This document shows, piece by piece, positions 6,693 through 39,168 of a stretch of DNA of 60,662 nucleotides; the first letter of the stretch is position 1, and each line of letters begins with the position of its first letter. The notes under the pieces are model-generated. The model was not told the DNA's origin and did no database searches. It saw nothing but the letters and a program-made list of their open reading frames with translations. A program made the position numbers and the translations under genes. The DNA is from an uncultured Flavonifractor sp. (lineage in GTDB: Bacteria; Bacillota; Clostridia; Oscillospirales; Oscillospiraceae): the NCBI RefSeq assembly GCF_944385615.1, contig NZ_CALWXV010000008.1, positions 1 to 60,662 of the forward strand, given 5' to 3'.

Positions 6693-6740
6693 GATTGACC
6701 AGTTTTTAATCTGTTTCATCATTGGAAAGGAAGCTATGCC

Positions 6741-8533: not shown

Positions 8534-9616
8534 TCAATAGCCGGGGTTCTCGTTTTTCACAAAGGTTTTGGCTTTCTCTTCGCCCCGGAGGACCCGCAGG
8601 CCGCCCAGCGCCAGAGAGCGCATTTCGTCCTCACCGGCATAGACCACAACGGGGGCGATGAAGGAGACTCGCTTCTCAATCTCACTGGTCACATACTTGG
8701 AATAGGCGATGCCGCCGGTGAGCAGGATGGCGTCCACCTTGCCGCACACGCCGGGGGCCACCTTGCCGATGTTCTTGGCAATGTTGAGGATCATGGCGTC
8801 GTACACCAGCTTGGCGTGCTCGTCACCGTTCTGGATCATCTGCTCTACTTCGCGGCTGTCGGTGGTGCCCAGGTGGGCCAGCAGGCCGCCCTTGCTCTTC
8901 ACCAGCTTCATCATGCTCTTGTAGTCGTACTCACCGGTGAAGCACATCTTGATGACGTCGAACATGGGCAGGCCGCCGGCCCGCTCGGGTGAGAAGGGGC
9001 CCTCCTCATCGTTGATGAAGTCCTCCACCTTGCCATTGTGGTGCAGGTTGACCGAGATGCCGCCGCCCAGATGGGCCACGATGACGGTGATATCCTCATA
9101 GGCCTTGCCGTTTTCCCGGGCGTAGCGCATGGCGGCGGCCCGGGTATTCAGGTTATGGCCCATGCCCTTGCGGCGGAGCAGGGGCAGGCCGGTGAGCTTG
9201 TTGATGGGCAGCAACTCGTCCACGGTGACGCCGTCGTAGATGTAGGCGGGGATATTCAGCTGGAGGCTGATGGAGCGGGCAATCATGGCGCCCACGTTGG
9301 AGGCGTGCTCGTTCTGGGGCTTGTTCTTCAGCTGCCACACCATGTCGTCGTTGACCTCGTAGGCCCCTGCCTCGATGGGGGTGAGCAGGCCGCCCCGGGA
9401 GACGATGGCGGTGAGGGACTCCAGGGGGATGTCATGGCGCTTCAGGCAGTCCAGCACTAGGTCCCGGCGGAACTCGTACTGGTCGGCCACACAGTCAAAG
9501 GGGGCCAGCTCCTCGGCGGAGTGGGTGATGGACTCCACGAACAGAGGCTCTTCACCGTCAAAGACGGCCAGCTTGGTGGAGGTGGAGCCGGGGTTGAGGA
9601 TCAAAAGGCGTTCCAT
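8534..9616 (-). CDS. buk: Butyrate / branched-chain fatty acid kinase
   Basis: The 360-residue protein belongs to the acetate/butyrate kinase (ASKHA) family: ILNPGSTSTKLAVF at the N terminus, SRGGLLTPIE, VAHLGGGISV and LTGGIAYS. It converts acyl phosphate plus ADP to the free acid plus ATP. Butyrate kinases are about 355-360 residues, shorter than acetate kinases. It is 13 bases after ptb and downstream of a branched-chain 2-oxoacid oxidoreductase, so isobutyryl-, isovaleryl- and 2-methylbutyryl-phosphate are likely substrates here as well as butyryl-phosphate. Last gene of the VorABCD-Ptb-Buk operon. Confidence 0.9.
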   Translation of the reverse strand: MERLLILNPGSTSTKLAVFDGEEPLFVESITHSAEELAPFDCVADQYEFRRDLVLDCLKRHDIPLESLTAIVSRGGLLTPIEAGAYEVNDDMVWQLKNKPQNEHASNVGAMIARSISLQLNIPAYIYDGVTVDELLPINKLTGLPLLRRKGMGHNLNTRAAAMRYARENGKAYEDITVIVAHLGGGISVNLHHNGKVEDFINDEEGPFSPERAGGLPMFDVIKMCFTGEYDYKSMMKLVKSKGGLLAHLGTTDSREVEQMIQNGDEHAKLVYDAMILNIAKNIGKVAPGVCGKVDAILLTGGIAYSKYVTSEIEKRVSFIAPVVVYAGEDEMRSLALGGLRVLRGEEKAKTFVKNENPGY

Positions 9617-9629
9617 AGATGGTACCTCC

Positions 9630-10541
9630 TTACTGTTTCTGCGCGGCGGCGGCAGAGATGACAATGGACAGATATTTCTCCTCGGCGGAGGAGCCCCGGC
9701 TGGTCATGACGATGGGGCACTGAGCGCCCACAATGAAGCCGGCCATTTTGGCCCCGCAGGTGACAGCCAGCATCTTGCCCATAATGTTGCCGGCGTGGAT
9801 GTTGGGGGCAACCAGCACGTCGCAGTCCCCGGCGCAGGGGCTGACAAAGCCCTTGAAGTCGGCGATCTCCTTGCTGACGGCACAGTCATAGGAGATGGGG
9901 CCCTCTACCACGCAGCCGGTGATCTCGCCCTTCTGGTTCATCTGTTTCAGAGCGTCGCCCTCCACGGTCTCAGGCATCTTGGGATTGAGCTTCTCCACAC
10001 AGGCCAGCACGCCCACCTTGGGATTGTCGTAGCCCATGGCCCGCAGAGCGCCTACAGTGTTTTCAATAATGGCCTTTTTCTGCTCCAGGGTAGGGTAGGT
10101 GACCATGCCGCCGTCCACGGGCAGCAGCAGCTTATGGTAGGTGGGCACCTCAAAGGCGGTGAAGTGGCTCATGACGCCCCCCTTGCCCAGGCCGTGCTCC
10201 TTGTTGACCACGGCCTTCAGCAGCACGGCGGTGTCCAGCCGGCCCTTCATCAAAAAGTCGGCCTTGCCCTCCTTCACCAGAGCCACCGCCTTGCGGGCGG
10301 CCTCGGCCAGATCGGGCTCGTCGTAGATATCCTCGGCGGGGACGCTCTCGCCCAGCTCCGCCAGCACCTGGTCAATGATGGCCTTGTCGCCCACCAGAAC
10401 GGGGGAGACGATGCCCTCGGCCCGGGCCCGGAGTACGGCCTGGAGGGTGTGCTCATCGCCGGCGGCGGCCACCGCCATGCGGGCCCGGTTGGGCTTGCCC
10501 TTCACATGGGCGATGAGTTCATCAAAGTTGTGGAATACCAT
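9630..10541 (-). CDS. ptb: Phosphate butyryltransferase
   Basis: The 303-residue protein is in the phosphate acetyl/butyryltransferase family. Visible family blocks include EGIVSPVLVGDK, GGVMSHFTAFEVP, EGPISYDCAVS and the C-terminal AGFIVGAQCPIVMTSRGSSAEEKYLSI. It exchanges CoA for phosphate on butyryl- or branched acyl-CoA, giving the acyl phosphate used by Buk for ATP synthesis. Starts with an AGGAGA ribosome site. A perfect 12-bp hairpin precedes it in the operon (10602). Confidence 0.88.
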   Translation of the reverse strand: MVFHNFDELIAHVKGKPNRARMAVAAAGDEHTLQAVLRARAEGIVSPVLVGDKAIIDQVLAELGESVPAEDIYDEPDLAEAARKAVALVKEGKADFLMKGRLDTAVLLKAVVNKEHGLGKGGVMSHFTAFEVPTYHKLLLPVDGGMVTYPTLEQKKAIIENTVGALRAMGYDNPKVGVLACVEKLNPKMPETVEGDALKQMNQKGEITGCVVEGPISYDCAVSKEIADFKGFVSPCAGDCDVLVAPNIHAGNIMGKMLAVTCGAKMAGFIVGAQCPIVMTSRGSSAEEKYLSIVISAAAAQKQ

Positions 10542-10601
10542 AAGGAAGATCTCCTTTCCGGATTGAGTCTGTAATGGGCGGGGAAAAGCCCTGTTTATGG
10601 A

Positions 10602-10633
10602 ACGCGGGCGCACAGAAGGCCGTGCGCCCGCGT
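10602..10633 (-). repeat. Intercistronic hairpin between vorC and ptb
   Basis: ACGCGGGCGCAC pairs perfectly with GTGCGCCCGCGT around an eight-base loop and no T run. It may set different levels of the oxidoreductase and ptb-buk messages by processing or partial termination. Confidence 0.6.
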
Positions 10634-10643
10634 CGGCAGGTCT

Positions 10644-11189
10644 TTATTTCTGGGCGCGGCCCAGCTCCAGGCCCTTCTCGAAGGCCTGCTTGTTCAGGGG
10701 AAGCAGCTTGGGCTTGGAGGCCAGCTTGTGCTCGATGGTGTTCCATACGATATCGGGCTGGATGACCTCGGTATAACCCACATAGACGCCCAGCATGATG
10801 ACGTTAAGCACCTTGGCGTTGCCCATCTCCAGGGCCAGCTCGGTGACGGGGGCCTTCACCAGCTTCACGTCGACCCGGCCGATGTCGTCGGAGACGATGG
10901 AGCTGTTGATGAACAGAGTGCCGCCGCTCTTCAGGGTGCCGATGAACTTAGCCAGAGAGGGGCCGTTCATGACGATCAGGTCGTCCATCACATCGCCCAG
11001 AGGGGCGCCGATGGCCTCATCGGAGATGACCACAAAGCAGTTGGCGGTTCCGCCCCGCTGCTCGGCGCCGTAGGAGGGAAAGAAGGTGACGTTCTTATCG
11101 GTGGAATTGCAGGTGGCGTCGGCCAGGAACTTGCCCAGCGTCATCACGCCCTGGCCGCCGAAACCGGCCACACACAGATTGGTTTCCAT
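10644..11189 (-). CDS. vorC: 2-oxoacid:ferredoxin oxidoreductase, gamma subunit
   Basis: The 181-residue protein begins METNLCVAGFGGQGVMTLGK, the GxGGQG nucleotide/CoA loop of the gamma subunit, and has PSYGAEQRGGTANC, the second hallmark. It completes the CoA-binding part of a four-subunit enzyme that oxidises a 2-oxoacid to acyl-CoA, CO2 and reduced ferredoxin. Fifteen bases after the beta gene. Subunit lettering varies between species; I follow the order seen in archaeal and clostridial Vor enzymes. Confidence 0.9.
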   Translation of the reverse strand: METNLCVAGFGGQGVMTLGKFLADATCNSTDKNVTFFPSYGAEQRGGTANCFVVISDEAIGAPLGDVMDDLIVMNGPSLAKFIGTLKSGGTLFINSSIVSDDIGRVDVKLVKAPVTELALEMGNAKVLNVIMLGVYVGYTEVIQPDIVWNTIEHKLASKPKLLPLNKQAFEKGLELGRAQK

Positions 11190-11204
11190 AGTTGCGTACC
11201 TCCT

Positions 11205-11942
11205 TTACCGATCCCGGATGACGCCCAGGGGGAACTCGGGCAGCATCTTCTCTTCGATGTAGTCCAGGGACTTCATGGGGTCCAGGCCCCAGTTGGTGGG
11301 GCAGCTGGTGACGATCTCCACCATGGAGAAGCCCTTGCCGTCCAGCTGATTCTGGAAGGCCTTGTGGATGGCCTGCTTGGTCTTGTTCACGTTGGCGGGA
11401 TTGTTGCAGCTGGTGCGCACCAGATAGGCAGGAGCGGTCAGCTGGTTGAGGATCTCGCACATGTGCATGGGATAGCCGTGCTCCTTGGGGTCCCGGCCCT
11501 TGGGGGCGGTGGTGGCCTTCATGCCCACCAGGGTGGTGGGGGCCATCTGACCGCCGGTCATACCGTAAATGCCGTTATTGATAAAGATAACGGTGATGTT
11601 CTCGCCCCGGTTGGCAGCGGAAATGGACTCGGCCAGGCCGATGGAGGCAAAGTCGCCGTCGCCCTGATAGGTGAATACCAGGGAGTCGGGGCTGGTGCGC
11701 TTCATGCCGGTGGCCACGGCGCAGGCCCGGCCGTGGGGGGCGGTGGTGTTGTCGTAGGCGATGTAGTCCATGTGCAGGCCGCAGCAGCCGATGCCCAGCA
11801 CACAGGCGGCCTTGTCCACCAGGTCCATCTCCTCCAGAACCTCGCCGATGAGCTTGATAACGGTGGAGTGCATACAGCCGGGGCAGAAGCCGGAGACCTT
11901 ATCTTCCTGGATGGTTTTCGTTCTTCCGTAGATCTTTTCCAT
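11205..11942 (-). CDS. vorA: 2-oxoacid:ferredoxin oxidoreductase, beta (TPP) subunit
   Basis: The 245-residue protein binds thiamine diphosphate: the GDGDFASIGLAE motif and, about 28 residues later, NNGIYGMTGGQ. N-terminal FCPGCMH and GIGCCG are typical of beta subunits that work with a separate ferredoxin subunit. One base separates it from the alpha gene, so the two are translationally coupled. The enzyme could in principle be a 2-oxoglutarate type, but co-operation with ptb-buk favours branched-chain 2-oxoacids. Confidence 0.9.
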   Translation of the reverse strand: MEKIYGRTKTIQEDKVSGFCPGCMHSTVIKLIGEVLEEMDLVDKAACVLGIGCCGLHMDYIAYDNTTAPHGRACAVATGMKRTSPDSLVFTYQGDGDFASIGLAESISAANRGENITVIFINNGIYGMTGGQMAPTTLVGMKATTAPKGRDPKEHGYPMHMCEILNQLTAPAYLVRTSCNNPANVNKTKQAIHKAFQNQLDGKGFSMVEIVTSCPTNWGLDPMKSLDYIEEKMLPEFPLGVIRDR

Positions 11943-11943
11943 C

Positions 11944-13026
11944 TTACTTCCCCTCCATGATCTTCTTGGCCGCGGCAATGACTTTGTCGCGGCTCATAAT
12001 GTTGCCGCCGGAGCACAGACAGGTCTCAATGGGGCAGCGGTCCTTCACACCCACAGCCACGTCGGTGACGAACTGGGCGGGGATGGACATCTCCACATCC
12101 AGCACGGCTTTGCACTTGTTGTAGTCGATGTGGTCATAGGACTCATAGGGGAAGGGGTGCACGGTGATGGGCCGGATCAGACCGGCCTTGATGCCCTGGG
12201 CCCGGAGCAGGTCCACGGCGGACTTGCAGATGCGGGCAGAGATACCGTAGGCGGTGAGCACGATCTCGGCGTCGGCCACCTGGTACTCCTCCACCTGCAC
12301 ATCCTTCTTCCAGGACTCATACAGGGCGGCGGCGTCCTCGTTGGCCTCCTGCATTTTGAGGGTGGACCACTGACCGGGCTGGATCCAGGACCGGTTGGCA
12401 TAGTCCAGCTGGTGGCCGACACAGGCCCAGCCCTGCTTGGAGGCCTTGATGGCGGCCACTTCCTCATCGCTCTTCATCTCAGGCAGGACAACGGGCTCCA
12501 TCATGGTACCGATGACGCCGTCGGCCAGGATGAGGACGGGGTTACGGTCCCGGTCGGCGTAGTCAAAGGCCTTATAGGTCATGTCCACGGCCTCCTGAAC
12601 GGTGGAGGGAGCAAAAACCAGCATCTGGAAGCCTCCGTTGCCGGAGGCCTTGGTGGCCTGGAAGTAGTCCATCTGGGCGGGCTGGATGGAGCCCACGCCG
12701 GGGCCGCCCCGGGAGATGTTGGCGTACACCATGGGGATGCGGGCGGCGGCGCAGTAGGAAATGCCCTCGCTCTTCAGGGCGATGCCGGGGGAGGAGGAGG
12801 AGGTCATGGACCGGGTACCGGCGGAAGCGGCGCCGTACACCATGTTCACAGAAGCCACCTCAGACTCGCCCTGGACGAATACGCCGCCCACCTCGGGCAG
12901 ACGGCGGGAAAAATACTCGGGAATCTCATTCTGCGGGGTGATGGGGTAACCGGCAAAGAACCGGCACCCGGCCCGCACGGCCGCCTCGGCAATGGCCTCG
13001 CAGCCCTTCATAAATACTCTTGCCAT
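11944..13026 (-). CDS. vorB: 2-oxoacid:ferredoxin oxidoreductase, alpha subunit (VorB type)
   Basis: The 360-residue protein has the alpha-subunit signatures AGCRFFAGYPITPQNEIPE near the N terminus, GESEVASVNMVYGAASAGTR and the RGGPGVGSIQPAQMD block. It forms the catalytic core with the beta subunit. The sequence closely matches what is usually annotated as the 3-methyl-2-oxobutanoate dehydrogenase VorB subunit in Clostridia. It follows the ferredoxin-like subunit by 15 bases. Confidence 0.9.
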   Translation of the reverse strand: MARVFMKGCEAIAEAAVRAGCRFFAGYPITPQNEIPEYFSRRLPEVGGVFVQGESEVASVNMVYGAASAGTRSMTSSSSPGIALKSEGISYCAAARIPMVYANISRGGPGVGSIQPAQMDYFQATKASGNGGFQMLVFAPSTVQEAVDMTYKAFDYADRDRNPVLILADGVIGTMMEPVVLPEMKSDEEVAAIKASKQGWACVGHQLDYANRSWIQPGQWSTLKMQEANEDAAALYESWKKDVQVEEYQVADAEIVLTAYGISARICKSAVDLLRAQGIKAGLIRPITVHPFPYESYDHIDYNKCKAVLDVEMSIPAQFVTDVAVGVKDRCPIETCLCSGGNIMSRDKVIAAAKKIMEGK

Positions 13027-13041
13027 TTTCCTTACCTCCCC

Positions 13042-13245
13042 TTACTTGAAAACCTCAATGGCGCCGTCGGGACACATCCGGCCGCAGATGGCGCAGCCGA
13101 TGCAGTCGTCCGGGTGGACGGGCACCACATATTCGTAGCCTTTGGAATTGACCTTGTCACCGATGGCCAATACCTGCTTGGGGCAGAACTTGATGCAGTA
13201 GCCGCAGCTCTTGCACCGCTCCGCCACGATTTGGACCTTTGCCAT
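13042..13245 (-). CDS. vorD: 2-oxoacid:ferredoxin oxidoreductase, delta (2[4Fe-4S]) subunit
   Basis: The 67-residue protein is a two-cluster ferredoxin: CKSCGYCIKFCP at residues 11-22 and CIGCAICGRMCP near 48-59. It passes electrons from the TPP/CoA site to free ferredoxin. It opens the vorDBAC block and has its own upstream TTGCAAGA-type sites (13267-13284), suggesting an internal GntR-controlled promoter after the ATPase gene. Confidence 0.92.
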   Translation of the reverse strand: MAKVQIVAERCKSCGYCIKFCPKQVLAIGDKVNSKGYEYVVPVHPDDCIGCAICGRMCPDGAIEVFK

Positions 13246-13266
13246 ACCGACATCTCCTTTTTATAT

Positions 13267-13284
13267 ATCTTGCATCTTGCAAAC
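13267..13284 (-). promoter_or_regulatory. Double TCTTGCA site upstream of vorD
   Basis: ATCTTGCATCTTGCAAAC holds two copies of the half-site seen in the neighbouring GntR promoter, 22 bases before the vorD start. On the minus strand TATATA follows. It probably allows the GntR regulator to act directly on the oxidoreductase genes. Confidence 0.6.
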
Positions 13285-13308
13285 TTTGGGGCGCAAGCAA
13301 ATGCCTGT

Positions 13309-14031
13309 TTAAATGCCCTCCTGCTCCGGACTGGCCCATGGATAGGTCAGATAGAGCCGGATGGGAAGTACTGGGCAGGGCAGGCCATCCGGCAGACCAA
13401 GGCACAGCTCCTTCCGAACCGTGAGGAAATCCACCGGCTTATAGGGCCCTACCATATCCACCAGCTGTTGGGCGCCAATGGCTACTTCGGCGGTGGTGGT
13501 TTCCGGTCCCAGGTTGGGGTTGCCGATGAGCCGCAGCCGGGCCAGCTCCACATGGGACACCCCTAATGTCTCACCCAACACCTTGTCGATGTGCTCCAGG
13601 GTGGCCGACCAGGGACGGAAGGGATTGATGACATAATAAATGGTGGTACCATCCCGGTTGAGCAGGGGGGCATATCCGCCGATGGACCGGGCGCCGATGT
13701 AGTCGCCCCCCACGTCCAGCACGGTGTAGCAGCCCTGGTCGTTGAGCAGCCGCCGCACGCCGCCGGTGAGGGTGGGGGCGTCCATGAACTGCTCTTCATA
13801 GTGGACCTCCACGCCAAGGTCTTCAAGCATGGACCGCTGGTCCCGGGAGCGGAACAGGGGCTTGGTCATGTCCAGATCGAAGAAGTGGACCGGCTTGTCC
13901 CCGGTTTCTGCCAAGGCTTGGGCCACGTTGAGGGCGATTTCGCTTTTTCCGCCCCCCGCCTCGCCCAGAAATACGAAGTTGGTGCTGGAGTCAAGGGGGA
14001 GCAGATCCCGGATGGAATATTGCGCAGCCAT
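13309..14031 (-). CDS. P-loop NTPase of unknown role
   Basis: The 240-residue protein carries a Walker A motif GEAGGGKS (about residues 23-30), an FFDLDMTKPLF motif like the switch region of SIMIBI-class (MinD/ArsA-like) ATPases, and VLDVGGDYIGA as a likely Walker B. No membrane segment or metal site is obvious. It is the first gene of the unit that leads into vorDBAC-ptb-buk, 63 bases before vorD, and its start overlaps GntR operator-like sites. It could be a maturation or assembly factor for the iron-sulfur enzyme, or a regulator. I do not recognise a characterised relative. Confidence 0.75.
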   Translation of the reverse strand: MAAQYSIRDLLPLDSSTNFVFLGEAGGGKSEIALNVAQALAETGDKPVHFFDLDMTKPLFRSRDQRSMLEDLGVEVHYEEQFMDAPTLTGGVRRLLNDQGCYTVLDVGGDYIGARSIGGYAPLLNRDGTTIYYVINPFRPWSATLEHIDKVLGETLGVSHVELARLRLIGNPNLGPETTTAEVAIGAQQLVDMVGPYKPVDFLTVRKELCLGLPDGLPCPVLPIRLYLTYPWASPEQEGI

Positions 14032-14250: not shown

Positions 14251-14913
14251 ATGGCGGCGATCAAAAAGCGTTCCCTGGTGGATCAGGTTTATGAGGCACT
14301 ACGCGGCGATATTATCATGCTGCGCCGCCCGTTGGGCAGCAAGCTCAATGTCAGTGAGCTTCAGGAGGAGCTGGGGGTGAGCTGTACCCCCATCCGGGAG
14401 GCCATCAACCGGTTACAGCAGGAGGGGCTGGTGGTCTATGAGAATAATGTAGGGGCCCATATCCTGGATTTGGACCGGCATGACATTATTGAAATTGAGC
14501 AGCTGGCCATGACCCTTCACTGCGCGGCCATCCGGCTGGCCATGGAGCACGGGGACAAGGGTGCAATGGTGATGGAGCTGGAGAAGCATCTGGAGGAATA
14601 CCGGCGGGCCAAAAATGTCCAAAGCGAGGTGACGGCGGTCAACCGCTTTGTGGGGGTGTTTTACGCCCACTGCGGCAACCGGCGGCTGGACGCCAGCATG
14701 ATCTCCATCCAGGGCCAGCAGCTCTTGCTGCGGTACATCTACGCCAACTGCCTGGAAGAGCGGGGGAGCCACGCCGAGGATTTCGCCGCTATGCTGGAGG
14801 CGGCCAAGGCAGGGGAGGGGGAGAGGGTGTGTGCCCTGCTCCAGGCCAATACCGACCGGCAGATCCCGGTGCTGATGGAGTATGTGCTGCGGGAAAAGGC
14901 TGCCCGGTCATAA
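14251..14913 (+). CDS. GntR/FadR-family transcriptional regulator
   Basis: The 220-residue protein has an N-terminal winged helix (residues 5-70: VYEALRGDIIM, LNVSELQEELGVSCTPIREAINRLQQEGLV) followed by an all-helical FCD-type ligand domain, the FadR subgroup that usually senses organic acids or acyl-CoA. It is transcribed away from the ATPase-vor-ptb-buk operon, with shared TCTTGCAAGA-type sites between them. The likely ligand is a 2-oxoacid or acyl-CoA of that pathway; this is inference. Confidence 0.88.
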   Translation: MAAIKKRSLVDQVYEALRGDIIMLRRPLGSKLNVSELQEELGVSCTPIREAINRLQQEGLVVYENNVGAHILDLDRHDIIEIEQLAMTLHCAAIRLAMEHGDKGAMVMELEKHLEEYRRAKNVQSEVTAVNRFVGVFYAHCGNRRLDASMISIQGQQLLLRYIYANCLEERGSHAEDFAAMLEAAKAGEGERVCALLQANTDRQIPVLMEYVLREKAARS

Positions 14914-15827: not shown

Positions 15828-15844
15828 TTCAAAAAAGTGCATAT

Positions 15845-15887
15845 AAAAAGGCGTGGCCAGTCTCAATCGAGACTGGCCACGCCTTTT
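15845..15887. terminator. Bidirectional terminator
   Basis: AAAAAGGCGTGGCCAGTCTC pairs with GAGACTGGCCACGCCTTTTT around a four-base loop. It ends the YczE-like gene on the plus strand and the LysR gene on the minus strand. Confidence 0.92.
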
Positions 15888-15891
15888 TGCG

Positions 15892-16776
15892 TCAATTTTG
15901 GCTGATGGCACGGACGATTTCCAGCAGGTGGGGCAGGCAGGGATTGGCGTTTTCTTCCCGCCACATCAGGCGGACGTTGGCAAAGGGAACCCCCAGCAGG
16001 GGGATGAAAGCCACCTTGCCCTGAGAGAGACAGGCCATGTCGTCGCTGAGGGTGGAGATACCAATGCCGCAAGACACCAGAGTGAGAAGTACAGGGACGT
16101 GGGTGGCTTCGGCCACCACCTGGGGAGCAAAACCGGCGTCGGCGGCGGTTTTCCAGATGAAGTCATGACCGGGGATGGAGGCGGTGCGGGCCATGACCAC
16201 AAAGGGTTCGTTCCGTACCTCTTCCATCTGGATGCTGCCACGGGTGGCCAGGGGGTGATCTATGGCGGTAATGATGCACTGATGGTTTTTGTGCAGCAGG
16301 ATGGAGGGGGCCTCCAGGCCGGTGGGGGCGGGCATGTAGTTGAGGATGGCGTCCACCTCGCCCCGTTCCAGCGCCGTCAGCAGCTTGGAATGGCTGTAGC
16401 CCCGAATCACCAGGGAGACCTGGGGATAGGCGGCCCGGAAGCGCTGGAAGAGTACGGAGAGCTTGGGCTCAAAGGTGTCCCGCATGATGCCCAAAGCCAC
16501 AGAGCCCCGATAGCCCTCCTGAGCCAGCCGGGCGGCCACCACACTGCCCCGGTACTCGTCCAGGATTTTGGGACACTCCTTGAAAAAGGCGGCGCCAGCC
16601 GGTGTCAGCGCCACACTGCGGGAGTTGCGGTAAAAGAGCTGGACCTCCAGCTCCTTCTCCAGAGCGGAGACCAGGCGGCTCAGGGCTGGCTGGGCCATAA
16701 ACAGATCATCCGCCGCTTGGGTAAAGTTTAGCCGTTGGGCCAGTACCATAAAGCACTCCAACTGATTCAGCGTCAC
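15892..16776 (-). CDS. LysR-family transcriptional regulator
   Basis: The 294-residue protein has the LysR N-terminal helix-turn-helix (LNQLECFMVLAQRLNFTQAADDLFMAQPALSRLVSALEKEL, residues 3-43 in two parts) and a periplasmic-binding-protein-like effector domain. The GTG at 16776 follows a GGGGGA site and matches the usual family start. It is transcribed away from the chalcone-isomerase-like gene, so it most likely activates that operon in response to its substrate, a plant phenolic in the working model. Confidence 0.9.
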   Translation of the reverse strand: MTLNQLECFMVLAQRLNFTQAADDLFMAQPALSRLVSALEKELEVQLFYRNSRSVALTPAGAAFFKECPKILDEYRGSVVAARLAQEGYRGSVALGIMRDTFEPKLSVLFQRFRAAYPQVSLVIRGYSHSKLLTALERGEVDAILNYMPAPTGLEAPSILLHKNHQCIITAIDHPLATRGSIQMEEVRNEPFVVMARTASIPGHDFIWKTAADAGFAPQVVAEATHVPVLLTLVSCGIGISTLSDDMACLSQGKVAFIPLLGVPFANVRLMWREENANPCLPHLLEIVRAISQN

Positions 16777-17163
16777 CAGAGATTCCCCCGTTTCCAATTG
16801 ATTTATAGAGTATATCAAACTTGGGTATGGTTTGTCACCGGTGATTTTATGCAATCCACGCATGGCTGTTATGCTCGGCGTAAAGGGAAATTCGTGATAG
16901 CCCACAGGAAAGTTAGGAGCTTTTTACAGAATTTGTCCAATTTAACGGCCTTCATTTTCCGGTATCAGGAAAATGAAGGAGAAAAATACTTTACCTAGTC
17001 TCAAATTGCATACCTGCGATTCATATACGGTATTTCACAGAAACGCGAAGAAACGGTAAGATGCATACGAAAACAAGGTGATCGGATTGGTGTATGCGGG
17101 CAGTTTTCACAAGGCCAGCTGAAACCTCGCCGTTATACCCCACCAGAAAAAGGAGGAGCCGAA
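16777..17163 (+). promoter_or_regulatory. Divergent control region between lysR and the chalcone isomerase gene
   Basis: Visible elements are: a perfect 12-bp inverted repeat CCTTCATTTTCC-N7-GGAAAATGAAGG (16949-16979); an ATACC-N14-GGTAT dyad (17010-17033); and TGCATAC at 17007-17013 and again at 17062-17068, facing GTATGC at 17092-17097. LysR proteins bind interrupted dyads of this sort. The ribosome site AAAGGAGGAGC precedes the ATG at 17164. No coding sequence is evident. Confidence 0.6.
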
Positions 17164-18000
17164 ATGTCTGTAGAATACCGTCCCATGCGCAGCGTCATTT
17201 ACGTGGATTGCGTGCGGGAAGAGTACCGGCACAGATTGCAGCGCTGGCTGTATGCCGTCCATGTGCCGGACAGCATTGGAAAATTTACCCCTTACTGCAC
17301 CAAATACGCCTTTTACAATGCCCTGCCCACCCCGCCGGAGGGGGAGCGGTTCGGCACCCGGCGGATGCAGATGACCGAGCATTACTGGATGGTCAACGAG
17401 ATGGTGCCCGAGATGAGCGTCAATTCCTTTACCGAGCGGATGCCGGTGGAGGTGCTGCGCTGGCAGGGCATGATCCCCGACGACGGGGCCGACCTGTCCC
17501 ATGAAGCAAACATGGACGGCGATTCCCACCGCGCTTCCGGCGGCGACAACGGCTGCCCGCCCTTCGTCTTTGCCCATGTGCCTATGAATTGGGAAGAGGA
17601 CTACAAGGGCAAGGGCCGCACCATTGACGACGGACCCAACTACCGCTGGCAGTTCGTGCTGCGGTGGCCCTGTGAGAAGACCGGCGAGAAGTGGTTCCAG
17701 GAGGTCTTTGTACCCTATTTCCAGAACCGGCCCGAGGTCACCCGCTTTTTGTCCAGCAAGATCTACCACGATGTGGTGGGCTGCCAGTTCCACCGGCTGG
17801 TAGAGCTGTGGTTCGATGGTCCCGAAGAGTGGTATCAGGCTGCCGTGGAGGGTACCAAGGTTCTGGAGAAGCCCGACTGGGCCCAGCAGGAGCAGTTCCC
17901 CTTCCTGAAGTCCAATTACAACATCGTTGGTATGTTCCTCTCCGACATGGCCGCCAGCGATAACCTGACCCAGTATCGGGGTTACATCACCATGCGCTAA
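17164..18000 (+). CDS. Bacterial chalcone isomerase-like protein
   Basis: The 278-residue protein matches, as I recall it, the chalcone isomerase of Eubacterium ramulus along its whole length (about 280 residues): PMRSVIYVDCV near residues 7-17, LQRWLYAVHVPDSI at 25-38, KGKGRTIDDGPNYR at 148-161, KPDWAQQEQFPFLK near 236-249 and the C-terminal NYRGYITMR-like end. His33 aligns with the catalytic histidine of that enzyme. The family interconverts flavanones and chalcones and has a ferredoxin-like fold unrelated to plant CHI. It is the first gene of an operon with a flavodoxin-fold enzyme, a membrane protein and an LVIVD protein. Substrate could differ from naringenin. Confidence 0.85.
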   Translation: MSVEYRPMRSVIYVDCVREEYRHRLQRWLYAVHVPDSIGKFTPYCTKYAFYNALPTPPEGERFGTRRMQMTEHYWMVNEMVPEMSVNSFTERMPVEVLRWQGMIPDDGADLSHEANMDGDSHRASGGDNGCPPFVFAHVPMNWEEDYKGKGRTIDDGPNYRWQFVLRWPCEKTGEKWFQEVFVPYFQNRPEVTRFLSSKIYHDVVGCQFHRLVELWFDGPEEWYQAAVEGTKVLEKPDWAQQEQFPFLKSNYNIVGMFLSDMAASDNLTQYRGYITMR

Positions 18001-18039
18001 AACCAATTTACATAACAGTTCAGAAAGGTTGGATCACGA

Positions 18040-19005
18040 ATGAAAGTTTTAGGTCTGTCCGCCGGTACCCTCAATGGCGCCAACGACTCTCTGTGTAAAG
18101 AGGCTCTGATGGCCGCTCAGGAGATGGGCGCCGAGATCGAGTTTGTCAATGTCCATCAGCTGAACATCAAGCACTGCACCGGCTGCAAGGCCTGCGTGGC
18201 CAGCCTGTTCTCCGGCCGGGGCAACGGCTGTGTCATCAAGGACGATCTGCAGTGGCTGATCGACAAGATGTTTGATGCCGACGGTATCATTTGGGCCGCC
18301 CCCATCTTTGAGAAGTGTGCCCCCGGTATCTTCCACACCATTATGGACCGCTTTGGCCCCCGCATGGACCGGGGCAACCTGATGATCGCCAATAAGATCG
18401 CCGAGGAGAAGGGCGGCAAGCCCATTGACCCCAAGTACCTGAAGGAGAAGGTGGTCACCTTCCTGGGCATCGGCGGTTCCGACTGGGCCACCCGCATCCA
18501 GTGTGACTTTGCCACCCACGCCCTCACCTGCAAGTGGACCATTATTGACAACCACTGCTTCCCCTGGTCCCTCAGCATCCTGATGAACGACGAGGCCATT
18601 GCCAAGGCTCACCAGATGGGTGCCGACCTGGCCGCCGCCGCAAAGAAGGTGGCTGACGGTACCTTCAAGCCCGGCCCCGGCGTGTTCAATGAGGACTATA
18701 AGGGCGCCGCCGGCGTGTGCCCCTACTGCCACAGCAACAACTTCTACCTCCAGGAGGACGGTACCGCCGTCTGCTGCCTGTGCGGTACCGAGGGCGTCAT
18801 GAAGAACGTGGATGGCAAGTACGTCTTTGAGTTCGACGCCGAGAAGTGGCTGCCCCATGCCCATGACTCCATCTCCGGCAAATTCATCCACGGCGACGAC
18901 ATCCAGCGCAACGAGGCCGCTTCCCGTGAGATGATGCAGACCGAAGAGGCCAAGGCCCGCAAGGCCAAGTATAAGGACTTCATCCAGTCCTCCAAGCCCT
19001 GCTGA
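18040..19005 (+). CDS. Flavodoxin-fold oxidoreductase with zinc ribbon; candidate flavone/chalcone reductase
   Basis: The 321-residue protein has an NADPH-dependent FMN reductase-like fold (residues 1-205) with the HCTGCKAC motif (C46, C49, C52) and C64 usual in Isf-like flavoproteins. After it comes an extra segment with CPYC (C227, C230) and CCLC (C245, C248), a four-cysteine zinc-ribbon arrangement, then a charged helical tail. It starts 39 bases after the chalcone-isomerase-like gene. Gut flavonoid degraders need an ene-reductase that saturates the flavone C2-C3 bond; an FMN protein here is a good candidate, but this is inference. Otherwise annotate as flavodoxin family protein. Confidence 0.75.
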   Translation: MKVLGLSAGTLNGANDSLCKEALMAAQEMGAEIEFVNVHQLNIKHCTGCKACVASLFSGRGNGCVIKDDLQWLIDKMFDADGIIWAAPIFEKCAPGIFHTIMDRFGPRMDRGNLMIANKIAEEKGGKPIDPKYLKEKVVTFLGIGGSDWATRIQCDFATHALTCKWTIIDNHCFPWSLSILMNDEAIAKAHQMGADLAAAAKKVADGTFKPGPGVFNEDYKGAAGVCPYCHSNNFYLQEDGTAVCCLCGTEGVMKNVDGKYVFEFDAEKWLPHAHDSISGKFIHGDDIQRNEAASREMMQTEEAKARKAKYKDFIQSSKPC

Positions 19006-19060
19006 TCCCGGTTATTCCGGCAAATCCGTTCCCTGTTGCATGGCGGCCAGGCCGCCAAAA

Positions 19061-19089
19061 CCCGGCCTCTCCGGAGGGGGGAGGCCGGG
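19061..19089 (+). repeat. GC-rich intercistronic hairpin
   Basis: CCCGGCCTC pairs with GAGGCCGGG between the flavodoxin-fold gene and the membrane-protein gene. No T run follows, so it may limit rather than stop readthrough. Confidence 0.6.
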
Positions 19090-19117
19090 CAAACAAAACA
19101 CGATGGAGGGATTCCTC

Positions 19118-19621
19118 ATGCTTCGCAAGGATCAGTTTGGTATTGTATTCAACACCATTTTTGCGATTGTGTTTGCTATCGTCCTGCCCCTGTATATCGA
19201 TGGCAGCAATATGTACCGGGAGGCCGGTATGATTCTCTGGGGTCCTCTGCTCCAGCAAGTTAGCAAGGACTTTATTATAGGCTTTGCCGTCAGCTTCACG
19301 ATCGGCACCTACATTGACCTGAAGGCTATGGGTGATAGTTTTGCCCGTCTGTGCGGCGTCAAGAATGAAAACGGCCTGCTGTTCCACATCCTGCGGGTGG
19401 CTTCCATCGCCTTTGTGATGGTCGTGCTGATGAGCCTCATTATGATGTTCATAACTATGGGCTACGTTCTTCCCGTGGGTACGTTCTTTATGGGCTGGCT
19501 GATGAACCTTCCCCTGACCTATGTGGTGGCTCTGGTGGTTGCCTTTGTGACCTTTGCCATTGGTATGCCCATTACCATAGCTCTGTGCCAGAAGCCCCCC
19601 AAGATGATGCCCCATCATTAA
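19118..19621 (+). CDS. Small four-helix membrane protein (DUF2798-like)
   Basis: The 167-residue protein has four hydrophobic segments (about residues 8-26, 42-66, 92-118, 126-155) separated by short loops, resembling DUF2798 proteins. Start ATG 19118 was chosen because GGAGG lies eight bases before it; the in-frame ATG at 19103 has no ribosome site. It sits inside the chalcone-isomerase-like operon. It could be a transporter subunit, a substrate channel or an anchor for the flavoprotein; nothing in the sequence decides. Confidence 0.65.
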   Translation: MLRKDQFGIVFNTIFAIVFAIVLPLYIDGSNMYREAGMILWGPLLQQVSKDFIIGFAVSFTIGTYIDLKAMGDSFARLCGVKNENGLLFHILRVASIAFVMVVLMSLIMMFITMGYVLPVGTFFMGWLMNLPLTYVVALVVAFVTFAIGMPITIALCQKPPKMMPHH

Positions 19622-19628
19622 CAAAAAG

Positions 19629-19665
19629 AGATCCAAGGCGCACCAATACCGGTGCGCCCGGATCT
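19629..19665 (+). repeat. Intercistronic hairpin before the LVIVD gene
   Basis: AGATCC-AA-GGCGCACC pairs with GGTGCGCC-C-GGATCT. Both arms match except for the bulges. It has no T run and precedes the AAGGAGG site of the next gene. Confidence 0.6.
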
Positions 19666-19693
19666 GTTTCAGAATAAAAAAAGGAGGTTCCTT

Positions 19694-21064
19694 ATGTCTG
19701 TTCCTTTTTACGCCAAGAGCCCCAATAATCAGGGCTATATCAAGAACATGGAGGTCGTGGGCTTTTCCGACCTGAACGGCATCAACGCCTTCCAGATGGC
19801 CCTCTATAAGACTGACGACGGAAAGTACTACATGTATTGCGGATCCTTCAAGGGTAACGGCGTCAACATCGTGGATGTGACCGATCCGGCCAATCCTCAG
19901 GTGGTGGGCATCGTCTACGTCAGCGACCCCAACATTTATTTCGCTCAGTCCACCCCCAAGGTCCAGGTGGCCGACGGCCTGCTCATCGTGGCCCTGGGCG
20001 GCGGCGTGCCCTTCCTTCACGGCATCAAGCCCGGCGATCCCGCCCTGGGCGGCCTGCAGATCTATGATCTGAAGAAAGATCCCCTCCACCCCGAGCTGCT
20101 CTCCCACTGGGATACCTGCGTGCCCAACGGTATGGGCGTCCACCGCTTTGCCTATAACGGCGGCAAGTATGTGTACATGCCCGCCGAGTGTCCCGGTTTC
20201 GTTGGCTTCATCGTCCGCATCCTGGACATCTCCGATCCCCGCAACCCCGTGGAGGCTGGCCGGTGGTGGCTGCCCAAGCAGTTCAAGGATGGCATGGTGG
20301 AGGGTACCTACGCCGTGGGCCATGACGCCGAGAAGTTCTGGGGCATGTGCCACGCCTGCAACATCTGCCCCGACCATCCCGACGAGCTGTACATGGGCTA
20401 CTTCGGCGGCGGCGGTATCATCCTGAACATCTCCGACCCCACCCGGCCCAAGCTGATCTCTCAGCTGATGGTGCAGCCTCCCTTTGCCGGCAAGTTCGAC
20501 GGCGCTCAGTGCCACACCTATATGCGCCTCACCGGCCGGAACTTTGCCGTGCTCACCAACGAGGGCGAGCGCTTCCCCTTCTTTACCAAGGACAAGATCC
20601 TCAACGGTGTGCATAAGGGTGCCCAGCCCATGAACAACCTGCATATGATCGACGTGTCCGATCCCGCCGATCCCACTCTGGTGGCCGAGTTTCCCTACCC
20701 CGAGGTGCCCGAGAACTTCCCCTACCCCAACTTCAACGACTGCGGCATCGGCGCGCCCGGCCCCTTCGGCCCCCACAACATCCATGAGCCCATGGGCAAG
20801 AGCTGGCTGCAGGACGACCCCAACAAGGTGTATTGCTGCTACTTCCACGCCGGTATGCGGGTGTTTGACGTGTCCGACCCCTACTACATCAAGGAGCTGG
20901 CCTATTTCATCCCGCCCAACCCGGAGAAGTTGCTCTTTGACGTGCCCGTGCCCGGCCCCATGATCGCCACCACGGAGGACTGTGTGGTGGACGACCGCGG
21001 CTATATCTATATGGATACCTGGCACGATGGTATGTATATCCTGCGCCTGAAGGACGGCATCTGA
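19694..21064 (+). CDS. LVIVD-repeat beta-propeller protein
   Basis: The 456-residue protein has about six copies of a propeller repeat of the form [VI]-x-[ILV]-x-[DN]-[VIL]-[ST]-DP-x-x-P: GVNIVDVTDPANP, LQIYDLKKDPLHP, VRILDISDPRNP, IILNISDPTRP, LHMIDVSDPADP and MRVFDVSDPYY. No signal peptide is seen, so it is probably cytoplasmic. His and Cys residues are frequent (for example MCHACNICPDHPD and APGPFGPHNIHEP), giving possible metal-binding centres like those of selenium-binding-protein or carotenoid-oxygenase propellers. Fourth gene of the chalcone-isomerase-like operon. It may be a new catalytic step; function unknown. Confidence 0.8.
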   Translation: MSVPFYAKSPNNQGYIKNMEVVGFSDLNGINAFQMALYKTDDGKYYMYCGSFKGNGVNIVDVTDPANPQVVGIVYVSDPNIYFAQSTPKVQVADGLLIVALGGGVPFLHGIKPGDPALGGLQIYDLKKDPLHPELLSHWDTCVPNGMGVHRFAYNGGKYVYMPAECPGFVGFIVRILDISDPRNPVEAGRWWLPKQFKDGMVEGTYAVGHDAEKFWGMCHACNICPDHPDELYMGYFGGGGIILNISDPTRPKLISQLMVQPPFAGKFDGAQCHTYMRLTGRNFAVLTNEGERFPFFTKDKILNGVHKGAQPMNNLHMIDVSDPADPTLVAEFPYPEVPENFPYPNFNDCGIGAPGPFGPHNIHEPMGKSWLQDDPNKVYCCYFHAGMRVFDVSDPYYIKELAYFIPPNPEKLLFDVPVPGPMIATTEDCVVDDRGYIYMDTWHDGMYILRLKDGI

Positions 21065-27432: not shown

Positions 27433-29571
27433 TTAGGAGTGCTTGTGGAACAAACGGCTGAAGAAACCGCTCTTCTTTTCCTGAGGAACAGGGGCGCTGG
27501 CGGCGGCCTGGGCCTCCCGCAGGGCCTGCTCCATCAAGGCTGCCTGCGCATTGACGGCGGGGGTACCCTCGCCCCGGGGGACCGGGGCATAGCTGCCGTC
27601 AGGCCCCATATTGCGGGCCTTCACATTGTCGGAGCAGAAGAGCTCTACATAGTGCCGGATCTGGCGGCGCACGTCCGGGTCCACTACCGGACAGGCGATC
27701 TCCACCCGGCGCTCCGTGTTGCGGGTCATCAGGTCGGCGGAGCCAATATAAAGGTGGGTGCCCTCTCCCACACCAAAGGCGTAGATTCGGGGGTGCTCCA
27801 GATAGCGTCCTACGATGGAAAAGACCCGGATCTGGTCGGTAAGGCCGGGCACGCCGGGCCGCAGACAGCAGATGCCCCGCACGTTGAGGGTCACCGGTAC
27901 CCCAGCCTGGCTGGCCTGGGCCAGCTTGTCGATGAGCTCCCGGTCAGTGACTGAGTTGACCTTGAAAAAGATCCGGGCGGGCTGGCCCTGGCGGGCCTTC
28001 TGGATCTCTCCGTCCATCAGCTCCAAAAGCCGGTTTTTCAGGCTGTTGGGGGCCACCATCAGCTGGTGATACTCGCCGTGGAGGTTGGAGGTGGACATAT
28101 TCTGGAAGAAAGCTGCGCCATCGCCGCCGATGGCGGGGCTGGCCGTCATGAGGCAGAAGTCGGTATACAGCTTGGCCGTCTTCTCGTTATAGTTGCCGGT
28201 GCCGATCTGGGTGATGTACTGGATGCGGCCCTTCTCCCGGCGGGTGATGAGGCAGATCTTGGAGTGGACCTTGTAGTGCTCAAAGCCATAGAGAATGGTA
28301 CAGCCCGCCTCCTCCAGCCTCTGGGCCCAGGCGATGTTGTTCTGCTCGTCGAACCGGGCCCGCAGCTCCATAAGCACCGTTACGTCCTTACCGTTTTCCG
28401 CCGCGGCGGCCAGGTACTCCACCAGCTTGGCGGTGGAGGCCAGCCGGTAGATGGTGATCTTGATGGAGAGTACCGCCGGGTCATTGGCAGCCTCCCGCAC
28501 CAGCTGGAGGAAGGGCTCCATGGAGTGGTAGGGATAGAACAGCAGCACATCCCGTCTTAAAATCTGGGGAATGAGCTTTTCCCCCTTCACCAGCCCGGCG
28601 GGCCACTGGGGAGGATAGGGGGGATAGCACAGAGCGGCGGCGCTCTCCTCGGGCAGTTTGCCCTCCAGGGAGTAGACGTACCCCATGGTAAGAGGGCTCT
28701 TGGAGTGGAACACCTGCTCAGCGGTCAGGTTCAATCGCTGACAAAGGAACTGTTGCAGCTCGGCGGAGGCCTCCCCCTGGATCTCCAGACGCACCGGAGC
28801 CAGCCGGGCCCGCTTTTTCAGCACCTTCTGCATATGGGCCCGGAAATCCTCGCCTACGTCGTAGTCCTCATCCTCCGGGCTAATATCGGCGTTGCGGGTC
28901 ACTGAGATGACGCATTTTTCCTCCACCTGATAGGTCTCAAAGAGCTGATCGGCAAAGTGGAGCACCAGCTGCTCGGTGAGCAGGTACCGCAGGCCCTGTT
29001 CCTCCAGCTGGAAGTAGGGGGGCAGAGCCTTGGGCAGGGGGACCAGGCCAAAGCAGCGGTTGCCGTTGAGCCGCAGGGTGAGGGCCACCGTCAGGCTGTT
29101 GGAGGGCAGATGGGGGAAGGGGTGGTGGCTGTCCACCACGATGGGGGAGAGAATGGGCAGCACATAGTCCTTAAACCAGCGTTCCGCCTGCTTGCGCTCC
29201 TTGCCGTCCAGCTCACTGGGGAGCAGGTTGCAGATGTTGCAGGTGCGCAGCCGCTTTTCCAGCTGGGAGATAATCTTGTCCCGCTGCTTGTACAGACCCG
29301 GCACAGTTTTAAAGATGGCCTGAAGCTGTTCGGCGGGGGTAAGGCCGCTCTTGCTGTCTACATGGGTCTGCTTGGACAGGGTCATATCGTAGATGGAGCC
29401 CACCCGGATCATAAAAAACTCGTCCAGGTTGCTGGTGAAAATGGCGGCGAATTTCAGCCGTTCAAACAGAGGAACGCTTTCGTCCTTGGCCTCCTCCAGC
29501 ACCCGCTCGTTGAAGCGCAGCCAGGATAGCTCCCGCTCCTGGGTATAGCGGGTATCCACCTCATGACGCAT
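27433..29571 (-). CDS. ppk1: Polyphosphate kinase 1
   Basis: The 712-residue protein matches PPK1 in length and motifs: ELSWLRFNERVLEEA near residues 14-28, SNLDEFFMIRVG near 49-60, KITIYRLAST, RARFDEQNNI and the phospho-histidine segment HYKVHSKICLI. The C-terminal YIGSADLMTRN motif is also present. It makes polyphosphate from ATP reversibly. Its start overlaps the end of ppx by 11 bases, so the two are coupled. The last residues (KKSGFFSRLFHKHS) form a basic tail. Confidence 0.95.
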   Translation of the reverse strand: MRHEVDTRYTQERELSWLRFNERVLEEAKDESVPLFERLKFAAIFTSNLDEFFMIRVGSIYDMTLSKQTHVDSKSGLTPAEQLQAIFKTVPGLYKQRDKIISQLEKRLRTCNICNLLPSELDGKERKQAERWFKDYVLPILSPIVVDSHHPFPHLPSNSLTVALTLRLNGNRCFGLVPLPKALPPYFQLEEQGLRYLLTEQLVLHFADQLFETYQVEEKCVISVTRNADISPEDEDYDVGEDFRAHMQKVLKKRARLAPVRLEIQGEASAELQQFLCQRLNLTAEQVFHSKSPLTMGYVYSLEGKLPEESAAALCYPPYPPQWPAGLVKGEKLIPQILRRDVLLFYPYHSMEPFLQLVREAANDPAVLSIKITIYRLASTAKLVEYLAAAAENGKDVTVLMELRARFDEQNNIAWAQRLEEAGCTILYGFEHYKVHSKICLITRREKGRIQYITQIGTGNYNEKTAKLYTDFCLMTASPAIGGDGAAFFQNMSTSNLHGEYHQLMVAPNSLKNRLLELMDGEIQKARQGQPARIFFKVNSVTDRELIDKLAQASQAGVPVTLNVRGICCLRPGVPGLTDQIRVFSIVGRYLEHPRIYAFGVGEGTHLYIGSADLMTRNTERRVEIACPVVDPDVRRQIRHYVELFCSDNVKARNMGPDGSYAPVPRGEGTPAVNAQAALMEQALREAQAAASAPVPQEKKSGFFSRLFHKHS

Positions 29572-30475
29572 GGCTGTCCACCCCCATCACCCGTTGGAGC
29601 AGGTAGCCCTCCCGGACGCCGCAGGCGCTTACCGTTACGGTGGACACCTGGTAGGCGTCTAAAATCTCCTTTAAAATGGCCAGGCCGGGCAGAATGGTGT
29701 GGACCCGGTCGGGGACCGAACGAAGGATTTGCCGCAGGGTATCCCGGTCGCTCTTTTTCAGCCCCTTATAAAGGGCGTAAATCTCGTCGGCGGGGATCAC
29801 CTTATTGTCCGGGTCGGTCCCCGACAGGTCATTGCACAGCTTGGCGGTGGCCCGGAAGGTTCCGCCCACGCCCGTCAGATGACCGCACCGCAGCCCAGCG
29901 GTTTTGGCCTTTTCCAGTTCCTCCTCCACCTCGGCCCGGATGGCCTTGCGCTCTTCCTTGGTGGGAAAGAGGCCGGAGACGTGCTTGGTGAAGAGGGACA
30001 GGGAGCCCATGGGCAGGGAGCAGCCCGAGGTGATGACCCCGTCCCGGTAGGCCACCAGCTCGGTGGAGCCGCCGCCCACGTCGGCCAGAAGGCCGTTGCC
30101 GGGGGCGCCGCCCCCCACTGTGGCTCCCAGGAAGGAGAAGGCGGCCTCGTCCGCACCGGAGAGCACTTCCACCTTCACACCGGTGACCGCCTCAATGGTC
30201 TCCAGGGCCTCCTCTGTGTTGACGATGTTGCGCAGGGAAGCGGTGCCGAAGACATGCAGATCGGCAATGTTGAAATTATTCAGCAGGGCCTTGAAGCCGG
30301 CCAGCACCCGGCAGGCCACCAGGATACCGCTGTCGGACAGCAGGCCGTTTTTGATGTAGCCGGCCAGACCGGCCATCTCTTTTTTGTTCATTAAAAGCTT
30401 GAATTTCTGTCCTTCCCAGTGGTAAATGGACAGACGGATGGTGTTGGAGCCAACATCCACAATGCCGCATTTCAT
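29561..30475 (-). CDS. ppx: Exopolyphosphatase / GppA-type phosphatase
   Basis: The 304-residue ASKHA-fold protein begins KCGIVDVGSNTIRLSIY and has GTASLRNIVNTEEAL, GLLADVGGGSTELVAY and the TGVGGTFRATAKL motif of the Ppx/GppA family. It removes phosphate from polyphosphate or from pppGpp. It lacks the C-terminal HD domain of long Ppx proteins. It overlaps ppk1 by 11 bases, so synthesis and breakdown of polyphosphate are made together. Start ATG 30475 is set by the family N terminus. Confidence 0.92.
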   Translation of the reverse strand: MKCGIVDVGSNTIRLSIYHWEGQKFKLLMNKKEMAGLAGYIKNGLLSDSGILVACRVLAGFKALLNNFNIADLHVFGTASLRNIVNTEEALETIEAVTGVKVEVLSGADEAAFSFLGATVGGGAPGNGLLADVGGGSTELVAYRDGVITSGCSLPMGSLSLFTKHVSGLFPTKEERKAIRAEVEEELEKAKTAGLRCGHLTGVGGTFRATAKLCNDLSGTDPDNKVIPADEIYALYKGLKKSDRDTLRQILRSVPDRVHTILPGLAILKEILDAYQVSTVTVSACGVREGYLLQRVMGVDSHAS

Positions 30476-30506
30476 AATAGGGTACACCTCTCTTTGGTTT
30501 CCTAGT

Positions 30507-30722: not shown

Positions 30723-30850
30723 AAAGCCTCAACTCCCTTCTCTCCAATGTATGGCGGAGACAGTTCCGGGTTGACGGCGGCGGCAGATTTGAGTACAATA
30801 GAGAATCAAATGAGCCATTTGTCTGTGGATTTTGAAGGGAGCATCCAAGC

Positions 30851-31763: not shown

Positions 31764-31773
31764 GAGAATAGAC

Positions 31774-39167: not shown

Positions 39168-39168
39168 C

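Follow-up and report, generated by a model that had tools for sequence, protein, structure and literature searches.

The window analyzed here, 60,662 nucleotides of contig C8 from a Flavonifractor-like genome (assembly G000; 2.69 Mb, 87 contigs, completeness 89.6%), carries at positions 15892 to 21064 a flavonoid-conversion operon with genes for a bacterial chalcone isomerase (CHI), a flavone reductase (FLR), a small membrane protein, and a beta-propeller protein of the LVIVD family. This operon is real and mostly of a known kind; LVIVD and a neighboring operon for a 2-oxoacid:ferredoxin oxidoreductase (KOR), phosphate butyryltransferase (Ptb), and butyrate kinase (Buk) are its unexplained part and a testable candidate for a missing step in flavonol degradation. 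We propose that the two operons together form the auronol branch of flavonol breakdown, a reading that we consider possible and give slightly less than an even chance. More tentatively, LVIVD could be the missing auronol-cleaving enzyme, i.e., a metal-dependent beta-propeller C-C hydrolase, which with KOR or the related indolepyruvate ferredoxin oxidoreductase (IOR), Ptb, and Buk would support an energy-conserving flavonol fermentation yielding reduced ferredoxin and ATP; the set would move between families, with an FLR-CHI-LVIVD core that is also plasmid-borne.

The genes on the plus strand are those for CHI (17164-18000; 278 amino acids), FLR (18040-19005; 321 amino acids), the membrane protein (19118-19621; 167 amino acids), and LVIVD (19694-21064; 456 amino acids), separated by 39, 112, and 72 bp, and a LysR regulator of 294 amino acids with a GTG start diverges from them on the minus strand (15892-16776; LysR_substrate 2e-27, HTH_1 1e-20). 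All five genes, including the opposing regulator, had been placed here by the original prediction, and their coordinates are confirmed. CHI matches the Chalcone_N family of Pfam (PF18232) at 2e-56 and the solved Eubacterium ramulus enzyme (ErCHI; PDB 3zph/4d06) at 5e-93 across residues 4-278, which bears out the earlier description as a near full-length relative and excludes a chance match. To place it in its family, we used 80 CHI loci kept from 89 relatives that a single pattern scan had reported from 84,980 species genomes; the scan is limited to CHI relatives that are fairly close (47-94% identity in the best segments), and counts over the 80 loci refer to fetched stretches that include close relatives and contig-truncated stretches. 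The 8-kb flanks are complete for 40 of them (full-flank loci), and the nearest named loci are those of Flavonifractor sp. AGMB03687 and An82 (94% identical).

When the window protein and the 80 open reading frames (ORFs) are aligned, position 33 is His in 77 of 81 sequences, and the alignment with ErCHI displays the catalytic His33 that had been predicted to be kept. Position 73 is His, position 91 Glu, and position 101 Gln in 79 of 81 each, while position 36 is Asp in 67 and Glu in nine; the window CHI has the active-site set of His33, Asp36, His73, Glu91, and Gln101. Asp79 of ErCHI, which is hydrogen-bonded in the taxifolin complex (PMC9694015), is replaced by Glu when counted by hand on the structure-search alignment. 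However, it is not a fixed feature of the family because this position holds Glu in 41, Pro in 36, and Asp in one of the 81 aligned sequences. The second gene had been predicted as an anonymous flavodoxin-fold reductase; it is indeed a reductase with an FMN_red domain, but it can be named as a full-length homolog of FLR, the flavone reductase of Flavonifractor plautii (PDB 7d38, 4e-123), with residues 1-320 aligning to 1-307 of that structure including the C-terminal tail. Among the FLR residues named in PMC7862272 and mapped by hand, His271, Ile275, Glu34, and Pro307 are kept, while Thr305 and Lys282 are each replaced by Ser. By homology, CHI and FLR can be assigned to flavonoid conversion with near certainty, and with this the prediction of a flavonoid-conversion operon holds. 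Simple pairwise NG86 estimates of omega, made against L002, L005, and Flavonifractor plautii (L028; loci and fetched stretches carry L numbers, genomes G numbers), are 0.065 (L002) and 0.28 (L028) for CHI, 0.10 (L002) for FLR, 0.12 (L028) for the membrane protein, and 0.018 (L002) and 0.024 (L005) for LVIVD. These values indicate purifying selection, which is strong for LVIVD against L002 and L005.

LVIVD is the commonest recurrent neighbor of CHI without an assigned reaction. Among the 80 CHI loci, it is present in 54, FLR in 59, and both in 50; LVIVD lies near CHI in 32 of the 40 full-flank loci, and in 47 of the 54 the two genes share a strand and start less than 3.5 kb apart. All 16 genomes chosen from CHI loci encode it (best match 42-99% identical; LVIVD was already visible at the locus in 12 of them), and at L041, L042, L050, and L053 it is not at the CHI locus yet elsewhere in the genome. 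Sampling by taxonomy, with both proteins called at E <= 1e-30, gave CHI in four of 295 genomes of the order and LVIVD in the identical four, three from one genus; in 391 genomes of the class, CHI was found in six and LVIVD in four, all inside the CHI-positive six and from four families. LVIVD at this threshold is confined to CHI-positive genomes in both samples, and the hypergeometric chance of the overlap is 3e-9 (order) and 1.6e-8 (class), values that ignore relatedness.

The propeller assignment of the original prediction stands (PF08309, 3.5e-13, 49.1 bits versus a cut-off of 20.2). An AlphaFold2 model built on a 34-sequence alignment of the window protein and scan relatives has a pLDDT of 88.6 and a pTM of 0.91, and its best Foldseek match is 5hrm (4e-18, TM 0.62 by query), followed by other propellers from 5e-9. 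This haloalkylphosphorus hydrolase/phosphotriesterase of Sphingobium TCM1 (5hrm, 5ioj) is the closest solved fold and carries a binuclear metal center. A profile search also reaches the 5hrm protein (4e-10) through LVIVD-like repeats, as a sum of weak pieces; a single-sequence search of solved structures found no relative of LVIVD, and the DAPG hydrolase domain of phloretin hydrolase (PF18089) was not found in it. Across 14 diverse LVIVD proteins, among them four plasmid proteins of ca. 28-34% identity, Arg151, Tyr154, His274, Glu290, His361, Asn362, and Arg389 are invariant and His150 is kept in 13. We infer a polar, possibly metal-binding pocket from these residues. The literature searched reports no activity for the LVIVD family, and none of the papers found on LVIVD repeats concerns flavonoids by title; the one paper found to contain both LVIVD and flavonoid is unrelated, judging from its title.

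The original prediction had suspected a different branch of the pathway, in our judgment rightly, and the best clue to this branch is an adjacent minus-strand operon at 8534-14031 that it did not mention. This operon begins with a P-loop NTPase (13309-14031; CbiA 7e-4, 20 bits, below the cut-off of 25.4) and a small ferredoxin-like protein of 67 amino acids, identified from its translation (13042-13245, hand-counted; relatives in 12 of the 80 loci). The three KOR subunits follow as alpha (KorA; 11944-13026; VorB family, NF005507 433 bits, cut-off 399), beta (KorB; 11205-11942; TPP_enzyme_C 4e-22), and gamma (KorC; 10644-11189; POR 1.5e-33). Next come a Ptb-like protein (9630-10541), which is above the cut-off for PTA_PTB (1e-40) and below that of the NCBIfam phosphate butyryltransferase model (5e-97), and Buk (8534-9616; NCBIfam butyrate kinase 8e-141, above cut-off). 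Between the two operons and divergent from the oxidoreductase genes, a GntR/FCD regulator is encoded on the plus strand (14251-14913, start chosen by eye; GntR 3.5e-16, FCD 3e-9), a relative of which flanks the IOR operon in L030/L031.

KOR alpha is present in 11 and IOR alpha in four of the 80 CHI loci, i.e., 15 in total and never both together; for KorA, the 11 loci compare with 0.48 expected from its copy number in 16 CHI genomes, an expectation that ignores relatedness. The KOR or IOR genes are close to, in line with, and on one strand with CHI or LVIVD in L034, L045, L047, L054, L044, and L013. The NTPase gene starts 4 bp past CHI in Butyrivibrio (L045) and Oribacterium (L047), and in an Enterococcaceae locus (L034) CHI and LVIVD enclose the entire KOR operon, all on one strand. 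In L054 the genes from NTPase to KorC follow LVIVD, and in L013 the KOR operon is ahead of CHI. IOR replaces KOR in L030, L031, L032, and L044, again with Ptb and in three of them with Buk; its alpha subunit is of the indolepyruvate type, above the TIGR03336 cut-off in L031 and just below it in L044. Elsewhere the linkage is looser: in CE91-St43 (G011), the genes for Ptb, Buk, the NTPase, and Kor lie past LVIVD at a distance of 5 to 12 kb, F. plautii ATCC 29863 (G003) has a full KOR operon on a different contig, and E. ramulus has Kor genes (KorA 84% identical) away from chi. At E <= 1e-150, KorA was confined to three genomes out of 285, each of them CHI-positive, and was lacking in G210, the fourth genome with CHI.

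In the proposed branch, FLR would reduce the flavone or flavonol, and CHI would open the ring and, for flavanonols, contract it to give an auronol, e.g., alphitonin. LVIVD, as a putative propeller metallohydrolase, would act by hydrolysis on the auronol or on the 1,2-diketone that is its open form, releasing phloroglucinol and an arylpyruvate; on chemical reasoning, the bond cut in the open diketone would be the one that joins the A ring to the carbonyl. KorABC with ferredoxin would oxidize the arylpyruvate to arylacetyl-CoA, and Ptb and Buk would release the arylacetate with a gain of one ATP. FLR is reported to reduce both flavones and flavonols (PMC7862272), and CHI to convert flavanonols to auronols (PMC9694015). 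Gut bacteria convert quercetin via alphitonin to 3,4-dihydroxyphenylacetate, with dihydroxyphenylpyruvate as a hypothetical cleavage product (PMC11170127), and the alphitonin-cleaving enzyme was termed unknown in 2025 (PMC12203004). The homologies of FLR, CHI, KOR, Ptb, and Buk, the gene neighborhoods, and the co-occurrence are observed. The reaction assigned to LVIVD, the arylpyruvate intermediate, and the use of KOR on it are what we infer, and the auronol model would account for the acetate-type product, for the two oxidoreductase types beside CHI, and for the missing match to phloretin hydrolase in nine of 12 genomes with CHI and LVIVD.

That last count bears on a first alternative, an ordinary flavone/flavanone operon in which FLR and CHI start the pathway, the C21-encoded reductase and phloretin hydrolase finish it, and LVIVD has an accessory role in binding or as a scaffold. 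The classical enoate reductase and hydrolase had been predicted as absent; neither an OYE-type reductase nor phloretin hydrolase is in the window operon, yet this holds for the window only because the genome encodes both on contig C21. There, at 28000-40171, lie a LysR-like gene (by reading), a paralog of FLR, one of the membrane protein (L084:8566-9072, inside the phloretin-hydrolase operon), an OYE-family reductase (704-amino-acid ORF), and phloretin hydrolase (L084:11226-12056), the last two being adjacent and the only homologs of their kind in the genome; at L005, the CHI set and the phloretin-hydrolase set share one contig. The presence of both later enzymes favors an ordinary operon, as does the treatment of LVIVD repeats as repeats of cell-surface proteins (PMC2447325). 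However, a phloretin-hydrolase match (E <= 0.01) was found only in E. ramulus, F. plautii, and G015 and in none of the other nine CHI and LVIVD genomes, whereas LVIVD was in 16 of 16, and the invariant set of His, Glu, and Arg residues also speaks against an accessory role; we regard this alternative as unlikely.

It is likewise unlikely, in our estimate, that LVIVD is a flavonoid enzyme with some other reaction, e.g., a flavanone/flavanonol isomerase or racemase, a tautomerase for the diketone intermediate of CHI, or a hydrolase with a different substrate. Such a role would explain the co-occurrence with CHI equally well, and a racemase would be useful because CHI is enantiospecific (PMC9694015). 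Plasmids of 105 records carry more distant LVIVD relatives, and in the four stretches inspected, whose relatives are 28-34% identical, no CHI- or FLR-like products are listed, so the substrates of LVIVD may vary. Another reaction would, however, leave the recurrent KOR/IOR-Ptb-Buk genes and the missing phloretin-hydrolase match in nine of 12 genomes unexplained. A further alternative concerns these recurrent genes themselves, which could serve fermentation of branched-chain or aromatic amino acids or butyrate formation from phloroglucinol and be near CHI by chance or loose linkage; it is compatible with the other alternatives, so its probability is not exclusive of theirs, and we consider it somewhat unlikely. 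The VorB-family profile of the KOR alpha subunit speaks for it, as do the NTPase relatives, mostly distant, in 157 of the 295 order genomes and the butyrate kinase among proteins found in phloroglucinol-grown but not glucose-grown Clostridium scatologenes (PMC10470551). It fits poorly with the excess of KOR at CHI loci, with the insertion of the KOR operon between CHI and LVIVD in L034, and with IOR filling the same slot in four further loci and in Acetoanaerobium.

Several observations weigh against the auronol branch and the part given to LVIVD in it. LVIVD is not near CHI in eight of the 40 full-flank loci, FLR and LVIVD are both missing at 17 of the 80 loci, and LVIVD was not detected in the class-sample genomes G469 and G529 (CHI 56% and 31% identical) or found in a 20.9-kb Acetoanaerobium stretch with CHI. 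KOR and IOR are missing at 65 of the 80 loci and at 30 of the 40 with full flanks, and nearly all Mogibacterium-type CHI loci have no KOR nearby (L054 is the exception), with KOR elsewhere in the two such genomes examined; by its profile, the KOR of the window is a member of the VorB family, i.e., that of branched-chain 2-oxoacids. The 5hrm enzyme is 18% identical to LVIVD and has another substrate and context, the likeness being at fold level. H220 of LVIVD is invariant in the 34-sequence alignment but not in that of 14 members, and with an omega of 0.47 against the more distant F. plautii L028, above the value for CHI, LVIVD does not come out as the most constrained gene each time. Finally, alphitonin decays spontaneously in culture medium (PMC11007074), so an enzyme for its cleavage may be unneeded.

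An FLR-CHI-LVIVD set in another family than the window's is found on the 163-kb Clostridioides difficile plasmid pZ1322HCD0102-2 (L105:7650-12849), where a LysR gene lies opposite genes for LVIVD, FLR, a small protein, a DUF1097 membrane protein, and CHI. Three LVIVD genes occur in Flavonifractor AGMB03687, of which two (99% and 66% identical to that of the window) form a tandem pair (G004:C11:89669-92482, partly in L090) on a contig separate from the CHI contig. LVIVD relatives of ca. 33% identity are also carried by symbiosis plasmids, e.g., Sinorhizobium medicae pSymA (L107:6902-8242), whose legume-nodulating hosts meet plant flavonoids. A second kind of LVIVD lies beside transporter-, short-chain dehydrogenase-, and glyoxalase-like genes (by eye) in E. 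ramulus (L086:6760-10799) and also occurs on a Rhodobacterales plasmid (L110:4784-8221), where genes annotated as glyoxalase and SDR adjoin it; it seems likely to act on another substrate.

In Acetoanaerobium noterae (L106:2489-16198), FLR, CHI, Ptb, IorAB, and Buk form one gene run on one strand that also holds a regulator related to the gene at 3668-5011 of the window. Upstream in this run are short-chain dehydrogenase, 3-hydroxyacyl-CoA dehydrogenase, cyclase, and BKACE genes like those of the C. scatologenes phloroglucinol pathway, and a short phloretin-hydrolase-like gene scores 22.1 bits, just under the cut-off of 22.7. The run looks like a flavonoid catabolism island. No phloroglucinol-pathway genes of this type turned up at E <= 1e-20 in the window, in L084, or in any of the 80 loci; a short phloretin-hydrolase-like gene also follows CHI in L046.

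As for the remaining features of the window, the membrane protein, whose membrane nature is a reading of its sequence, had no match in Pfam or NCBIfam and has relatives in eight of the 80 CHI loci; with LVIVD, it makes up the two proteins of unknown role that the original prediction had counted. It is one of three distinct proteins of ca. 160 amino acids that adjoin CHI or FLR in different lineages (19118-19621 in the window, L056:6210-6713, and L056:8875-9366), all membrane-like by reading and one of them a DUF1097 protein, and these may be interchangeable parts of flavonoid uptake or export. Ribosome-binding-like stretches are clear for CHI and LVIVD and weaker for FLR and the membrane protein. 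There is a promoter-like site at 17034-17062, but the count for the region (six versus 3.6 in shuffles, standard deviation 1.5) is not clearly above that of shuffles, and terminator-like sites around the operon do not exceed the mean of the shuffles. A strong hairpin of 20 pairs (15844-15889), located between the DUF6198/YczE-like gene and the LysR gene, is possibly a bidirectional terminator. The P-loop NTPase is the first gene of the KOR operon and accompanies it in the loci examined; it was rejected as a marker of flavonoid oxidoreductase operons given its mostly low-identity relatives across the order, while identities of at least 61% were confined, among the matches listed, to the four CHI genomes. 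At the butyrate kinase end (3668-8087), a PAS/sigma-54-activator-like regulator (by eye), a citrate-transporter-family protein, and an AtuA-family protein are possibly another acid-catabolism unit.

LVIVD is a named gene that tracks CHI and has a plausible downstream energy pathway, which makes the gap at alphitonin cleavage directly testable. If the proposal is true, it would give a function to a family without activity report in the literature searched, and it would account for the retention of CHI where Fcr by itself suffices to open flavanones. Fcr cleavage of flavanones is independent of CHI (PMC11868195). Among the closest known systems is the F. plautii locus (L028, ATCC 29863; related L057), in which FLR, CHI, membrane protein, LVIVD, and LysR genes are grouped as in the window, with CHI 74% and FLR 57-58% identical, though CHI comes first in the window. 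FLR and CHI have consecutive locus tags there (A4U99_05915/05920); when 14 STRING partners of chi and phy were tried on apigenin, FLR alone was active, and of the genes at this locus, the accessible text mentions FLR and CHI alone and never the term LVIVD (PMC7862272). E. ramulus CHI (3zph, 4d06, 8b7r) shares its full length, His33, His73, and Gln101 with the window CHI and differs in having Asp79 instead of Glu; at the chi locus of E. ramulus ATCC 29099 (L042), whose CHI differs from the solved sequence, LVIVD is in the genome but not adjacent.

The arylpyruvate-oxidoreductase half of the model is not new because it was anticipated from expression: wetland metagenome-assembled genomes expressing CHI, FCR, and phloroglucinol reductase also express indole-pyruvate oxidoreductase, suggested to convert phenylpyruvates to phenylacetates (PMC8084988). 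The idea is common to both, but there it is expression-based and, in the accessible text, comes without a CHI neighborhood, a cleavage enzyme, or Ptb-Buk. The Fcr-phloretin hydrolase pathway of E. ramulus and Clostridium butyricum shares the flavanone start, and homologs of both of its enzymes form the second locus of the genome studied here; that pathway yields propionic acids from flavanones, whereas the proposed branch would lead to acetic acids via a 2-oxoacid.

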